Shown here: in pieces, positions 55,588 to 63,903 of the stretch | Numbering within the stretch: the first letter of the stretch is position 1 | How the letters are laid out: every line of letters starts with the position of its first letter | Assembly: GCA_002698995.1 (NCBI GenBank) | Contig: PAAX01000019.1 | Location: 124,001 to 188,000 of the forward strand | Reading direction: 5' to 3' | DNA from: Ignavibacteriota bacterium | GTDB lineage: Bacteria; Bacteroidota; Ignavibacteria; Ignavibacteriales; Melioribacteraceae | DNA: 64,000 bases | Made by a program: the position numbers and the translations under genes | Notes under the pieces: model-generated | Databases searched by the model: none | What the model was told of the DNA's origin: nothing | What the model saw: the letters and a program-made list of their open reading frames with translations, nothing else

Positions 55588-56028
55588 CTAATATGGAAAT
55601 TCAAGTTCTTTTATTGAATATGCATTTCCATTGACTCTTAAAACAGCATCACCCAAATAAACCAAATTTCCACCCATCCAGCTTTCAGTTTTAAGTCCGG
55701 TATATTGAAGAGAATTATTTGTCCCATTTTCTTGTGCACTTAAAGTAAGTTTCTCTTCAGTTTTATTTCCGGTAAAATTAAAATTAAACTCAGTATAAGT
55801 AAAAGTTGAAGAACCATAAGCAAAAGTACCTGAGCCGTTCAATGCACCGTCTTTTTCGTTAAATGTTACATTTACTTTAATGCTGTCGGTAATACCATTT
55901 GTAGTTCCCCATTCAGAAACATTCCATGTTAATGTATTAGTGTTGGATGAAGATGCTGGATTATCTTCATCACTGCAGGAAGTTAGAACAAAAAGAAACA
56001 AAGCAAAAATTACCAAATATATTTTCAT
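55588..56028 (-). CDS. Hypothetical lipoprotein
   Basis: This 146 aa protein has a lipoprotein signal (IFALFLFVLTSCSDED) with Cys18 as the lipidation site and an adjacent acidic tail. A short Ser/Asn linker follows, then a beta-rich domain with repeating FNEKDGALNGSGTFAYGSSTFTYTEFNFNFTG segments. No domain is recognised. Genes of this type are common surface or periplasmic lipoproteins in this group. A hairpin 50 bases downstream likely ends the transcript. Confidence 0.8.
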   Translation of the reverse strand: MKIYLVIFALFLFVLTSCSDEDNPASSSNTNTLTWNVSEWGTTNGITDSIKVNVTFNEKDGALNGSGTFAYGSSTFTYTEFNFNFTGNKTEEKLTLSAQENGTNNSLQYTGLKTESWMGGNLVYLGDAVLRVNGNAYSIKELEFPY

Positions 56029-56113: not shown

Positions 56114-56800
56114 TCACTTGACTAACAACATTTTTCTAGTACTAATAAATTCATTTGTTTTTAGAGTATAAAAGTAAATGCCGCTTGAAAGGTTTTCTGC
56201 GTTAAAGTTTATTTTATATGAACCGTTTGACATTTCTGTATTAACTAATTCAGCAACTTCTTTTCCAAGTACGTCATAAACTTTTAATGAAACATTCGTC
56301 TGCTTTGGAATTGAGAAATTTATTGTTGTACTTGGATTAAAGGGATTTGGATAGTTTTGAGAAAGTAAAAAGTTTTGTGGTATTTCATTTAAAGATTCTA
56401 CATCAGTAGTTATTCCAAAATGAGATAATTTAATTCTGCTAATTACTGAATCCGCATGTGATACAAATAAATAAGTATCATTAGAAGTTATATCATCTAT
56501 TCTAGTGGAATAAATATCTTCGTTTGTATTTGTCCATACATTATTAGTTGATTGATTGCGATAAGAAATTGCTCTTCCTTGTGAACCGAAAAAGCTGACA
56601 AATTCTGTTTCACCAACTTGATGAATACTATATGCATTCACATTTATAAAATTAGGATCGAGTTCAAAGCTATTACCATAATCATTAGAATGAAATATAC
56701 CGCTTTCACCTGAACTGTAGAATTTTGCAATTGTAATATTCGAACCTGATTTGTTTACTGAAAAATCTCGAATGGAATTTCCAGTGAATAGTTTACTCAT
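56114..56800 (-). CDS. C-terminal part of a split secreted propeller protein with T9SS sorting domain
   Basis: This 228 aa frame starts at an internal ATG and has no signal peptide. Its first half continues BNR-like repeats (SGIFHSNDYGNSFELD). It ends in a Por sorting domain (LSQNYPNPFNPSTTINFSIPK to KMLLVK). It is in the same frame as the gene just upstream (56831-57406) and separated from it by one TAA codon and ten sense codons. It is therefore almost certainly the 3' half of one gene of 430 codons. If the TAA is real, this part lacks an export signal. Confidence 0.8.
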   Translation of the reverse strand: MSKLFTGNSIRDFSVNKSGSNITIAKFYSSGESGIFHSNDYGNSFELDPNFINVNAYSIHQVGETEFVSFFGSQGRAISYRNQSTNNVWTNTNEDIYSTRIDDITSNDTYLFVSHADSVISRIKLSHFGITTDVESLNEIPQNFLLSQNYPNPFNPSTTINFSIPKQTNVSLKVYDVLGKEVAELVNTEMSNGSYKINFNAENLSSGIYFYTLKTNEFISTRKMLLVK

Positions 56801-56830
56801 TGAAAATTCATCAAATGTTCTTTTTAACTT

Positions 56831-57406
56831 TTATATGTTCATTGGAGTATTTCCGCTCAAAACATAAAGTGTTGAATCGCTTCGCTCAATCTGTCTTATA
56901 ATTGAAAGTTCCAATTGCAAGTTCAATGGGAGTTCAAGCATTTCCCAATTATCACCGTTATCATTAGATCTATAGATTGAACCGGTAAAACCGGCATATA
57001 AATAGTCCCCATCCGAGGTTAAAGAATAATTATATTTACTATTTATGCCTTTATTCTTTTTTATCCAGGAAGAACCCAGATCTGAAGAAGCATAAATTCC
57101 GTTATCTGTACCTAAGAAAGTAATTCCATTATGCCATTCAATTGTGTACAGTCCAGTAACAGAATCAGGTAAACTTTGACTTAAATTAGTAAATGAATTA
57201 CCATCATCAGTAGACAATAATATTTGCGTTGGAGGATAACTACCACCCGTTGGACCTGCAAAGACAAATAGATTGTTATTTACAGTAAAAATATTAAAAA
57301 CTCTCGAATCACCATTAACAATCAATTTTTCCCATTGAGCATAAACGGTCGAACTTGTAAATAAACTAATAATAACTAATAGTAATATGTGTTTAGCAGC
57401 TTTCAT
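56831..57406 (-). CDS. N-terminal part of a split secreted propeller protein
   Basis: This 191 aa frame has a signal peptide (HILLLVIISLFTSSTVYAQ). It carries BNR/photosystem-stability-like repeats (ILLSTDDGNSFTNL, GIYASSDLGSSWIKKN, SIYRSNDNGDNWEML). It ends at TAA (56831-56833) after STLYVLSGNTPMNI. The next gene continues the same frame to a T9SS sorting domain, so this is probably the 5' half of a broken or readthrough gene. The regulator-like motif lies 55 bases upstream, and the start is preceded by GAGGGTG. Confidence 0.8.
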   Translation of the reverse strand: MKAAKHILLLVIISLFTSSTVYAQWEKLIVNGDSRVFNIFTVNNNLFVFAGPTGGSYPPTQILLSTDDGNSFTNLSQSLPDSVTGLYTIEWHNGITFLGTDNGIYASSDLGSSWIKKNKGINSKYNYSLTSDGDYLYAGFTGSIYRSNDNGDNWEMLELPLNLQLELSIIRQIERSDSTLYVLSGNTPMNI

Positions 57407-57461
57407 GTCACCCTCTTTTTTTGAAATTTACAACGACATGATATCTCATTATTCAAAATTC

Positions 57462-57485
57462 TTCAATAGCATCGTAATGCGATGT
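57462..57485 (-). promoter_or_regulatory. Copy A of a 24-bp motif upstream of the secreted protein gene
   Basis: On the minus strand it reads ACATCGCATTA, two variable bases (CG) and ATGCTATTGAA. The core dyad is GCAT-N4-ATGC at 57469-57480. It matches copy B (58159-58182) at 22 of 24 bases. It lies between the response regulator gene and the secreted gene, 55 bases before the latter's start. I interpret it as a binding site for the neighbouring NarL-type regulator. Confidence 0.6.
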
Positions 57486-57505
57486 ATGATCTTTTGAATT
57501 AGGAG

Positions 57506-58129
57506 TTAAATTTCGCCGCGAAGTTTCTTTGTAATTACTTCACCTTTGGAGTTTACATTTAGTTTTCTGTAAACATTTCTGATATGCTGTCTTACTGTAT
57601 CGAGAGAAATATCATATTTATCGGCAATCATTTTATAACTTAATCCTTCAACTAATGCCAATACAATATCATACTCCCTTTCTGATAGAGGCTTTTCAAG
57701 TTTTTTCTTCGGTTGGAAATACTCAATTACTTTTCTTGCAATTCTCGGCGACATTGGTGAACCGCCGATTGATAAAATACTTAGATAATGTTTAATTTCT
57801 TCTAAAGGAGAATTCTTTAATAAATATCCTGATGCTCCCCCCTGCAGACATTTGAAAATTCTTTCTGCATCATCATGAACAGTTAACATAACAACATCAC
57901 TATTAGGAAGTTTATCTTTAATCATTCTTATCGATTCATCACCTTGTCTGCCTGGTAAACCAATATCAGAAAGAATTATATCCGGTGCATTTTCTTCATT
58001 TAATTCTTTAAGAAAAGCTTCTATGGAATTAACACTCATTGTACATCTAAATTCATCTTGATGATTTAAAAATTTATAGAGCATTCCTCTTAATTCTTCA
58101 TCATCTTCAATTATGGCTAAATTTTTCAT
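57506..58129 (-). CDS. NarL/FixJ-family response regulator
   Basis: This 207 aa protein has a receiver domain with acidic pocket residues (LAIIEDDEELRGML), phospho-acceptor Asp55 (DIILSDIGLPGRQG) and conserved Lys in GGASGYLLKNSP. A LuxR-type helix-turn-helix follows at about residues 148-200 (PLSEREYDIVLALVEGLSYKMIADKYDISLDTVRQHIRNVYRKLNVNSKGEVITK). It follows the sensor kinase gene with a 62-base gap that contains copy B of the motif and a TATAAT sequence, so it probably has its own regulated promoter. Confidence 0.95.
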   Translation of the reverse strand: MKNLAIIEDDEELRGMLYKFLNHQDEFRCTMSVNSIEAFLKELNEENAPDIILSDIGLPGRQGDESIRMIKDKLPNSDVVMLTVHDDAERIFKCLQGGASGYLLKNSPLEEIKHYLSILSIGGSPMSPRIARKVIEYFQPKKKLEKPLSEREYDIVLALVEGLSYKMIADKYDISLDTVRQHIRNVYRKLNVNSKGEVITKKLRGEI

Positions 58130-58158
58130 GGTATAAAATTCTAATACATTATAATACT

Positions 58159-58182
58159 TTCAATAGCATTTTAATGCGATGT
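58159..58182 (-). promoter_or_regulatory. Copy B of the 24-bp motif, upstream of the response regulator gene
   Basis: On the minus strand it reads ACATCGCATTA, two variable bases (AA) and ATGCTATTGAA. The dyad GCAT-N4-ATGC is at 58166-58177. TATAAT (58148-58153) begins 5 bases further downstream, so the motif lies where a -35 box would be. This is the layout expected for an activator site. It begins 29 bases before the regulator's ATG, which suggests autoregulation. Confidence 0.6.
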
Positions 58183-58191
58183 TATCTCCCA

Positions 58192-61100
58192 TTATTTAAT
58201 AGGTGGAGCAGAAAGAACAATTTTAAATCCGTTTTCTTTAACATATTCCACCTTACCCTTTATTTTTTCTGCACGCATTTCAATATTTTTTAAACCTTGC
58301 CCGGTGCTAAATTCTTTTTGATAATAATTATTGCCGTTATCACTTATTATTAATTCAAGTTTTTCTGTTGAATTACATAAATAGATTTTTGCTGAATCAG
58401 CATTTGAATGTTTGGTAATATTGTGAACAGCTTCTTTAATTATTAGATAAATATTCTGTCGTACTTCCAAGGGAACTTTTAAATCACTAATAAGACCGGT
58501 TATTTCAAAATCAACTTTTATATTTTTTTCAACCAACATAGAGAAAACAGTATCTTTAATTTTATTGATTAGGTTTTCTGCATTATCGTTTCTGGAATCT
58601 ATTGCCCAGACAATATCCTGCATAGTAGAAACAGCATCAATCGCCTGTTCGGATATTCTTTTCAAATTATTAGATTCTTTTTCTCCGTTTATCTGCATTT
58701 CGAGCATTTGAGCCCGCATTGAAACTTTAGTTAATGTTGACCCAACTTCATCATGAAGATCACTGGCAATTTTTAACCGTAATTTTTCCATCTCAATAAT
58801 TTTGTTAATCTTTATTCTGTAAAATGAATAAATAATTGAAGAAATAAGTAAAACCATCAAAGTATAAAACCACCAAGTCTGCCAAAACGGTGGATTAATA
58901 ATTAAATCCAAAACTCTGCTGTTGTTTATGTTTGGTTGATTATTTTCAGCAGTAGTTACAATAAACCTGTATTCACCTGGAGATAGATTTGTGTAGGTAG
59001 CAAATCTCCTTTTATAATCAGTAAAAAACCAGTTATCATCAAAACCTTCAAGTTTATAAGCATAAGTAACTTTTTTTGGATTAGCCGGATTTACAGATGC
59101 AAATTCGAATTCTATAAAATTATCTTTGTAACTCAATACCATCTTATCTAAAACTTCCAAATTTTTTGGAAGTATTGGATTTGATCCGGGCGATACTTCT
59201 TTATTCATCAACTTAAATTTTCTTAGCATAAGATTATGTTCGGTAGAAAGCTCCAACAAAGAATCAGGATTAAAAATCGTAAGTCCTTCGTTTCCTCCGA
59301 ATATTATTAAATTAGATTGCAGTTTAATAAACGAATTCTGCCAAAATTCATTATTGGGAAGCCCATCTTCTAAATAATATGAAGTAATTCTTTCATCGGC
59401 ATCTATCAAAAACAGTCCGTTATTACTACTTACAAATTTATTCTTATTATTATCTTCAATTATTCCATAGTAGCTTAACTGTGAGTATTTATCATTTGAT
59501 AAATAAGTTACAATAGAATCATTAGTTGAATTAAACTTTACCACACCCATTTTGTCTGTAGTAAACCAAAGATTATTATCTGTATCTTCATAAATGCAGT
59601 ACGTTTTTGATAAATCGAACAACTTTTCATTTTTAGGTTTGGTTATAAGATTTTTATTAAAATCATATTTTAAAACTCCATATCCGTTTGTTCCTAACCA
59701 GATATTATTTTTAGAATCCCTAAAAATTGAAATAACTCCAAATTCTGAAGGAAGAGAAAGTGAACTATCATAAATTGGTTCAACTGCAGTGTTGTTCTCT
59801 TTATTATAAATCACTAAACCTTGCAGAAAAGAACCGAATAGAATATTGTCATCGTCAATTTGAAGTGATGAAATAGCTAAAGTTGCCTTTTTATCACCAA
59901 ATTTAGGAAGTCTTTTAACTTTATTATTCTCAATAATTGAGCTTCCTTTATAAAAATGATTTATCCATAATTTATTTTCATTTGTTATTAATAATCCCGC
60001 AATATTATTTGATGCAATTGAATTATTGTTATTCGGATTATTCTCTAAATGCTGTAATAGATTAAAATTCTTATCATATATTGCAACACCTTTATTGAAA
60101 GTACCAATATAAATATTATTTTCAGAATCTTCTACTAATGATATTACATTCTTTGAAGGTAATGAATTAGGATTGTTTTTACTTTCTGATAAAACTTTAA
60201 ATTGATTTTTTGTATTTGATATTTTCAGTAAACCAACTGCATCTGCCCCGAACCATATATTGTTATGGTTATCAATATTAATATCAGTAATAGTTAGGTT
60301 CTTTTCCTCTCCGCTGGATATTTCTTGTAATCTTATTTTTTCAAATCGATCTTCTTGTAAATTATATTTATGAAGCCCGGTTTTGCCGGCTGCTAATAAT
60401 TCTTCTTTCTTCTTAGTATTCATTTTGAAAAAATTATTTTCAGATGTGCTTTTATTCTGCAGATTATAGTATGAGAATTTTTTCGAAGAAATGTTATACT
60501 TTATTATTCCTTTTTCTAGTGTAGTAATCCAAATATCACCATTATTATCTGATTTAATTGACGTTATAAAGTCGGCAAATTTTTTATCACTATCATGAAG
60601 AATTTCTATCACTCTATTCTGTAAATTATAAAGATGAATTTCCCCTTTTCTAGAAGCTGAGTATATTATATCATTATAAATAGTAAAGTCTTCATAAAGA
60701 TGATTCTTTATCAGCTCCTTGTATTCAGAAGAATTTGAGAAATCTGTAAATGCCTTTTCTTCATAATTAAATTCAAAAAGCCCTTTTGAAGAAAAGCACC
60801 ATAAATTTCTTTTACTGTCTTCAATAATTCCGTAAATATCTAAATCATCAGTTTTATTGATTCTTATAAAATTATTCTGTTCTCTATTGTATAGGTTCAG
60901 TATTCCTTTAGTTATAATCCATAATCTGTTATCTGAATCTTCAAATAACTTTCCTATTGAGCTGTAAGCTATAGAAGTAGAATCATCTTTATCATTGAAA
61001 TATTGCTCGAAAGAATAACCATCAAATTTGTTTAGTCCATATGCAGTAGAAATCCATAAAAATCCTTCATGATCTTGAAGAATGTGAAATATTGTTACTT

Positions 61101-61200
61101 GCGATAAACCTTCATTGGAAGAAAATACATCGTATCTCAATGGAAATTGCTGCGGTAAAACTAAATTGAGAAATAAAACAAATAAAATGATTCCTTTCAT
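58192..61200 (-). CDS. Propeller-type sensor histidine kinase (Reg_prop/Y_Y_Y/HisKA_3)
   Basis: This 1002 aa protein has a signal peptide (IILFVLFLNLVLPQQ). A long periplasmic seven-bladed propeller region of repeats follows (GFLWISTAYGLNKFDGYSFEQY, NNIWFGADAVGLLKIS, NNIWLGTNGYGVLKYD). A Y_Y_Y domain comes next at about 690-770 (VTYAYKLEGFDDNWFFTDYKRRFATYTNLSPGEYRFIVTT), with one membrane helix at about 775-795. The HisKA_3 phospho-accepting His816 is in SDLHDEVGS, and an HATPase domain ends the protein. It likely senses an extracellular or periplasmic compound and phosphorylates the downstream NarL-type regulator. Confidence 0.93.
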   Translation of the reverse strand: MKGIILFVLFLNLVLPQQFPLRYDVFSSNEGLSQVTIFHILQDHEGFLWISTAYGLNKFDGYSFEQYFNDKDDSTSIAYSSIGKLFEDSDNRLWIITKGILNLYNREQNNFIRINKTDDLDIYGIIEDSKRNLWCFSSKGLFEFNYEEKAFTDFSNSSEYKELIKNHLYEDFTIYNDIIYSASRKGEIHLYNLQNRVIEILHDSDKKFADFITSIKSDNNGDIWITTLEKGIIKYNISSKKFSYYNLQNKSTSENNFFKMNTKKKEELLAAGKTGLHKYNLQEDRFEKIRLQEISSGEEKNLTITDINIDNHNNIWFGADAVGLLKISNTKNQFKVLSESKNNPNSLPSKNVISLVEDSENNIYIGTFNKGVAIYDKNFNLLQHLENNPNNNNSIASNNIAGLLITNENKLWINHFYKGSSIIENNKVKRLPKFGDKKATLAISSLQIDDDNILFGSFLQGLVIYNKENNTAVEPIYDSSLSLPSEFGVISIFRDSKNNIWLGTNGYGVLKYDFNKNLITKPKNEKLFDLSKTYCIYEDTDNNLWFTTDKMGVVKFNSTNDSIVTYLSNDKYSQLSYYGIIEDNNKNKFVSSNNGLFLIDADERITSYYLEDGLPNNEFWQNSFIKLQSNLIIFGGNEGLTIFNPDSLLELSTEHNLMLRKFKLMNKEVSPGSNPILPKNLEVLDKMVLSYKDNFIEFEFASVNPANPKKVTYAYKLEGFDDNWFFTDYKRRFATYTNLSPGEYRFIVTTAENNQPNINNSRVLDLIINPPFWQTWWFYTLMVLLISSIIYSFYRIKINKIIEMEKLRLKIASDLHDEVGSTLTKVSMRAQMLEMQINGEKESNNLKRISEQAIDAVSTMQDIVWAIDSRNDNAENLINKIKDTVFSMLVEKNIKVDFEITGLISDLKVPLEVRQNIYLIIKEAVHNITKHSNADSAKIYLCNSTEKLELIISDNGNNYYQKEFSTGQGLKNIEMRAEKIKGKVEYVKENGFKIVLSAPPIK

Positions 61201-63570: not shown

Positions 63571-63903
63571 TTATTCAAATAATTCATTTTCGTTCGATTT
63601 TTCAATTGCAATTATAAAATCTAATTTTGCTAATTCATTAATTGACTTAAGTCTTCCCTTTCCGGTAAAAATGTTCTTAATAACAGATTCGATTTTTATT
63701 CCGGTCTCTTCAATTTTCTTTCTCTCTAAATCCGTTATTTGCTCCTTAACTTTAGCTAAGAAATTATATTCTACAGAATCGGAAATTTCATCTGAATTAT
63801 TAATTTCAGCTCTTAAAATAGGATCAATCTTATATTGATAATCATTATTCATAGTACCGCAGCCGCTTATTAGAATTACTAACATAAATAATAGTCTAAA
63901 CAT
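63571..63903 (-). CDS. Hypothetical lipoprotein
   Basis: This 110 aa protein has a lipoprotein signal (LLFMLVILISGCGTMNND) with Cys15. A short acidic, helical domain rich in Lys, Glu and Ile follows (EINNSDEISDSVEYNFLAKVKEQITDLERKKIEETGI). No known domain is seen. It follows the partial T9SS protein gene by 20 bases in the same direction, so the two may form an operon. Confidence 0.8.
   Translation of the reverse strand: MFRLLFMLVILISGCGTMNNDYQYKIDPILRAEINNSDEISDSVEYNFLAKVKEQITDLERKKIEETGIKIESVIKNIFTGKGRLKSINELAKLDFIIAIEKSNENELFE

Follow-up and report, generated by a model that had tools for sequence, protein, structure and literature searches.

A putative operator of a NarL/FixJ-type response regulator beside its own gene and before genes of exported proteins in Ignavibacteria

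Gene setting of the two motif copies

The window analysed here, a stretch of 64,000 nucleotides from an Ignavibacteriota bacterium, carries on its minus strand a pair of signalling genes surrounded by genes of exported proteins. In minus-strand order, the locus comprises the gene of a sensor kinase with Reg_prop, Y_Y_Y and HisKA_3 domains, copy B of a 24-bp motif, the gene of a response regulator (RR), copy A of the motif, a gene encoding a type IX secretion (T9SS) protein and a lipoprotein gene. In the following, G000 is the own genome of the window, the other G-numbers are the genomes compared and L-numbers are RR loci. The features are:

55588 to 56028, minus strand: small predicted lipoprotein gene, probably cotranscribed with the T9SS gene 56114 to 57406
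56114 to 57406, minus strand: T9SS exported protein gene with BNR/sortilin-like repeats and Por_Secre_tail, its frame broken by TAA at 56833-56831
57438 to 57466, minus strand: predicted promoter A, with TTG (57466-57464) in the operator edge, 20 bp, then TATCAT (57443-57438)
57462 to 57485, minus strand: copy A, putative operator behind the RR stop codon and ahead of the T9SS gene, core CGCAT-N4-ATGCT-ATTG from 57481 down to 57464, kept in RR orthologs
57506 to 58129, minus strand: NarL/FixJ-type RR, with receiver and GerE/LuxR helix-turn-helix (helix residues TVRQH)
58133 to 58163, minus strand: predicted promoter B, the weaker case, with TTG (58163-58161), 20 bp, then AATTTTAT (58140-58133), the orthologs having CAATTTTG or similar
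58159 to 58182, minus strand: copy B, putative operator between the kinase stop and the RR start, core CGCAT-N4-ATGCT-ATTG from 58178 down to 58161, kept in RR orthologs
58192 to 61200, minus strand: sensor histidine kinase (Reg_prop propeller, Y_Y_Y, HisKA_3), presumed partner of the RR and adjacent to it in orthologous loci
63571 to 63903, minus strand: small predicted lipoprotein gene, downstream of a T9SS subtilase gene whose start lies beyond the window

Read on the minus strand, copy A is ACATCGCATTACGATGCTATTGAA and copy B is ACATCGCATTAAAATGCTATTGAA. As the original prediction had stated, the two copies have the same orientation, are identical at 22 of 24 positions, contain a GCAT-N4-ATGC dyad and lie 55 bp (copy A, start codon at 57406) and 29 bp (copy B, start codon at 58129) upstream of a gene start; both differences are spacer bases. 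With up to three mismatches allowed, the motif has 2 matches in the window (0.00 expected over 100 shuffles), and a search of the whole genome (4,231,110 bases, 4.23 Mb) found no third copy at this threshold, the reversed control pattern giving 0 matches.

The RR combines a receiver domain (Response_reg, 5.3e-20), whose residues D9, D10, D55 and K105 are invariant in 11 orthologs, with a C-terminal GerE/LuxR helix-turn-helix (GerE, 3e-15) that aligns with NarL 1je8. The kinase (58192-61200) and the RR (57506-58129) are separate ORFs and do not form a hybrid on one polypeptide. The gene behind copy A had been presented as that of a secreted T9SS protein. It is indeed of the exported type and displays the C-terminal sorting domain Por_Secre_tail (5.8e-13) in its 3' part, but a single in-frame TAA (56831-56833, minus strand) cuts this domain off from the part with the signal peptide. 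An intact 430-aa homolog from G032 matches the two halves in their order (65% and 76% identity), and the interrupted frame is either a decaying gene or a sequence error.

Association of the dyad with the regulator and with exported proteins

The dyad ATMGCATNNNNATGCKAT, with at most one mismatch, is retained beside the RR gene in this locus and in all 10 orthologs that have the VRQH helix, across eight genera. These orthologs are 80-81% (G023, G032, G149, G150), 67% (G022), 62-63% (G024, G145) or 56-57% (G017, G010, G119) identical to the RR. In the form ATMGCAT-NNNN-ATGCKAT, the dyad lies in the kinase-RR gap, directly downstream of the RR gene or, in most cases, at both positions. An alignment of 28 sites, including those unlinked to an RR, shows no variation in the inner CAT and ATG or in the first two bases of ATTG, the last G of which is present in 26/28, the spacer, the flanks and the neighbouring genes diverging among sites. 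The gene behind the RR varies between genomes (T9SS protein, lipoprotein or, in G024, a second Reg_prop kinase); therefore, the dyad is kept while the cargo changes. No such site was found beside L187 of G043, a distant RR (~39% identical) that also has the VRQH helix, and the dyad is absent beside the second RR of G145 (58%, helix VRHH).

Among 164 genomes of the order, 11 carry the exact dyad (23 sites) and 12 encode a close homolog of the RR (E <= 1e-65). All 11 dyad-bearing genomes are among these 12, so that the site occurs only where the regulator is present, and none of the 152 genomes devoid of a close homolog has the exact dyad. The hypergeometric P of this co-occurrence is 3e-16, a value that does not count independent events since the genomes are related. 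The RR-bearing genome lacking the exact dyad, G106, has the most distant homolog (52%), with a VRTH helix instead of VRQH.

Five of the exact sites stand apart from the RR, always in RR-bearing genomes and, as a raw count, always ahead of genes of exported proteins. The original prediction would have been refuted by a motif that is abundant and scattered within genes, which was not the outcome: besides the two exact copies, the genome has two intergenic relatives with one mismatch each, a complete ATTG and the promoter layout. One of them (C24:190461, AGCATCAAAATGTTATTG, 20 bp, TATACT), ~2.5 kb past the window end, precedes the T9SS subtilase gene and the lipoprotein gene 63571-63903; in G032, this pair is located within the gene run behind the RR. 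The other (C36:2684, CGCATAAAAATGTTATTG, 20 bp, TATTAT) precedes the gene of a GLUG-repeat exported protein cut by the contig end, the ortholog of which in G150 (95% identical where the two overlap) is preceded by an exact site. Furthermore, a lipoprotein family (CGHTNELA/CAHTNDLA) has a site in G023, G150, G017 and G119, with two kinds of genomic surroundings, a pair of lipoprotein and T9SS genes carries one in G022, and the G145 homolog of the lipoprotein gene 55588-56028 has its own exact one. The proposal of a small regulon linking a sensor to surface proteins is thus supported as regards exported targets, in the own genome and in other genera; the predicted regulon remains small and is conserved, but it extends past the locus.

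Several other matches in the own genome were discarded as targets. Three with one mismatch (C7:211835, C19:177486, C35:16785) are intragenic, as are most of the inspected ones with two mismatches; about half of these were inspected, so that weaker targets may be missed. Two more, C19:115788 (ATGCG-GTTG) and C7:86512 (CCCAT-N4-ATGTG-ATTG), adjoin paralogous RRs and were assigned to these.

Promoter geometry and competing explanations

The ATTG at the 3' edge of the dyad holds the TTG of a -33/-35 box, and a -10/-7 element is found 17 bp past the hexamer. Across the RR family, downstream-gene sites match TATAAT best at spacer 17 (mean 3.8/6, against 3.0 for the next best spacer), 13 of the 21 sites having at least 4 of 6 matches. 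At these sites, the dyad therefore adjoins the -35 box at the correct distance from the -10 box, and its centre lies near -43.5 (43-44 bp upstream of the predicted transcription start). The layout of promoter A (TTG-N20) recurs, with TATAAT in place of TATCAT, in G023, G032, G022, G149 and G150. Several sites can also be read as TAnnTTTG, the Bacteroidetes promoter consensus (PMC10309648).

The promoter of the RR gene itself follows this scheme less closely. At copy B and its ortholog sites, spacer 17 is not preferred, and close orthologs share TTTT[GA] at TTG+20, just before the start codon; the -10/-7 element of copy B is poor, and an RR message started from it would be almost leaderless. 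The original prediction had instead taken a TATAAT (58153 down to 58148) as the -10 box of copy B, with the motif at -35. This had to be abandoned: it is badly spaced and absent in orthologs, the conserved layout being TTG-N20 followed by the -10/-7 element. As this TATAAT lies only 4 bp past the TTGAAA of the motif, its use would centre the dyad near -30, over the core promoter.

The motif is very probably the operator of the adjacent NarL/FixJ-type RR, through which the RR would regulate its own gene and those of exported proteins. The core of the original prediction, i.e. binding of the motif by the adjacent RR, with control of the RR gene and of the exported T9SS protein, is strongly supported, as a prediction from sequence, by the footprints in orthologs, by the co-occurrence in the 164 genomes and by the unlinked sites before exported proteins. 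The Reg_prop sensor kinase would phosphorylate the RR, a dimer of which would bind the dyad through two ATGC[GT] half-sites separated by a 4-bp spacer and followed by ATTG. The bound dimer would have its centre ~43-44 bp before the transcription start and would reach with its edge onto the -33/-35 TTG. It would activate the RR gene at copy B, the T9SS gene and the lipoprotein gene behind it at copy A and, via like sites elsewhere in the own genome, the T9SS subtilase unit and the GLUG-repeat exported protein.

Activation is the likely sign of this regulation, judging from site position only. Class II activator sites are usually arranged in this way (lux-box-like), with a dyad at about -43.5 and hexamers 17 bp apart. 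Repressors often overlap the core promoter, and contact of the site with the -33/-35 element could mean that the same RR represses through the same operator, or exerts opposite effects at copies A and B. This is nevertheless unlikely: although the promoter TTG sits inside the dyad edge, the overlap is limited to this outermost TTG, the centre and the spacing fit a class II activator, and the position of the site is constant at all downstream-gene sites.

Binding by a transcription factor other than the adjacent RR deserves consideration, as the own genome encodes several LuxR-type RRs, one of which (the paralog at C19:115860) is adjoined by the similar dyad CGCAT-N4-ATGCG-GTTG. However, the paralogous RRs have their own, different half-sites, and the dyad accompanies the RR in every ortholog while it is missing from 152 genomes that lack the RR and are rich in other LuxR-type RRs, which makes such a factor quite improbable. 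Still harder to defend is the view of the copies as a small duplicated repeat, an RNA hairpin or a terminator. Each copy comes after a stop codon and has an inverted repeat, but the flanks are unlike and there are only two copies; no T-run follows the site, where a promoter is found instead; and the unlinked sites stand upstream of genes. Furthermore, the outer arm bases of the 28 sites (C/T 11, A/T 9, C/G 4, A/G 4) do not covary, so that a hairpin is not what is kept.

Paralogous regulators and known systems

The wider family was examined through 124 distinct RRs with their flanks, from 58 genomes. For 15 of them, a perfect 5-4-5 dyad with ATTG behind it is present no more than 200 bp away (shuffle mean 1.24, maximum 4), and the same test with six other dyad spacers gave 0-3 RRs. 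Half-sites were grouped with one mismatch allowed in the arms, and helix residues were aligned with positions 188 and 189 of NarL, which are base-reading. The half-site is ATGC[GT] for VRQH, GTGGG for IKSH and IKYH, ATGGG for IRSH, GCGTG for VDSH, ATGTG for VRSH and GGGTA for VRAH. At loci with two copies, both half-sites agree (P = 0.003, 8 loci; P = 0.02 after reduction to 5 loci, the related pair L030/L165 still among them). Under these grouping criteria, ~100 of the 124 RRs have no site. The data do not amount to a strict residue-to-base code: VRTH goes with ATGCG-like sites in G027 but with ATGGG in G106, VRHH goes with several half-sites, and L187 has VRQH without a site. Since the analysis does not tell a true code from shared ancestry and sites are missing beside most RRs, the association between helix and half-site is a lead rather than a result. 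It is about as probable as its contrary that Ignavibacteria possess a family of sensor-RR modules with a fixed 5-4-5-ATTG scaffold and module-specific bases that follow the helix residues of the RR, forming an insulated set with private operators and exported targets.

Several members of this family were observed in the own genome and elsewhere. A sister kinase-RR-T9SS module (L033, G000:C24:195187-195958; RR at C24:195282, helix IKSH) is located ~14 kb away and has CCCCC-aaag-GTGGG-ATTG just before its T9SS gene, with no other exact copy in the genome. At L075 (G000:C7:86512-86529), beside an IRHH RR, CCCAT-N4-ATGTG-ATTG stands between a Reg_prop kinase gene and a T9SS gene in divergent orientation. 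In another family of the order, the VDSH RRs of L030 and L165 (G035 and G048) have perfect CACGC-N4-GCGTG-ATTG dyads on both sides. A CGCAT-N4-(A/G)TGCG-GTTG class is found beside RRs with VRHH or similar helices (L037 at G000:C19:115788; the L121-L200 set, e.g. G032:C57:6846), and it is possible that it is near enough to the present operator for cross-talk.

The literature searched contained no comparable regulon for this bacterial group. The result is a sequence-defined, testable predicted regulon in which a Reg_prop sensor would be connected with lipoproteins and type IX-secreted proteins. Furthermore, the half-site variants of the sister modules are natural material on how NarL-type regulators read DNA and on the insulation of paralogous two-component systems.

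The closest likeness is with NarL of Escherichia coli, which shares the receiver, the GerE output domain and the inverted half-sites. Read as TMGCATN-NN-NATGCKA, the present dyad fits the 7-2-7 site of NarL, TACCCCT-AA-AGGGGTA (PMC4549865), and the TVRQH helix aligns with TVKVH of NarL. However, the half-site is ATGC[GT] here and GGGGTA in NarL, the presumed partner is a Reg_prop propeller sensor, and the predicted targets are exported surface proteins and not nitrate respiration. LuxR/FixJ-type class II activators bind a dyad that is just upstream of the -35 box and touches it, centred near -42 to -44. The predicted operator position is alike, whereas the promoters here would resemble TATAAT or TAnnTTTG.

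The sensors of hybrid two-component systems (HTCSs) are propeller-type, as is the present kinase. In Bacteroides, HTCSs are a major class of regulators for polysaccharide utilisation genes (PMC11253607); the likeness lies in a sensor and a regulator that control neighbouring genes, as predicted here. In contrast with HTCSs, the kinase and the RR are separate and the output domain is GerE instead of the AraC type usual in HTCSs. A two-component system tied to type IX secretion is also known from Porphyromonas, PorY-PorX-SigP (PMC4800418, PMC5005315). PorX acts on the genes of the secretion machinery through SigP, whereas the present GerE-type RR has its predicted operators directly at the genes of the secreted cargo.
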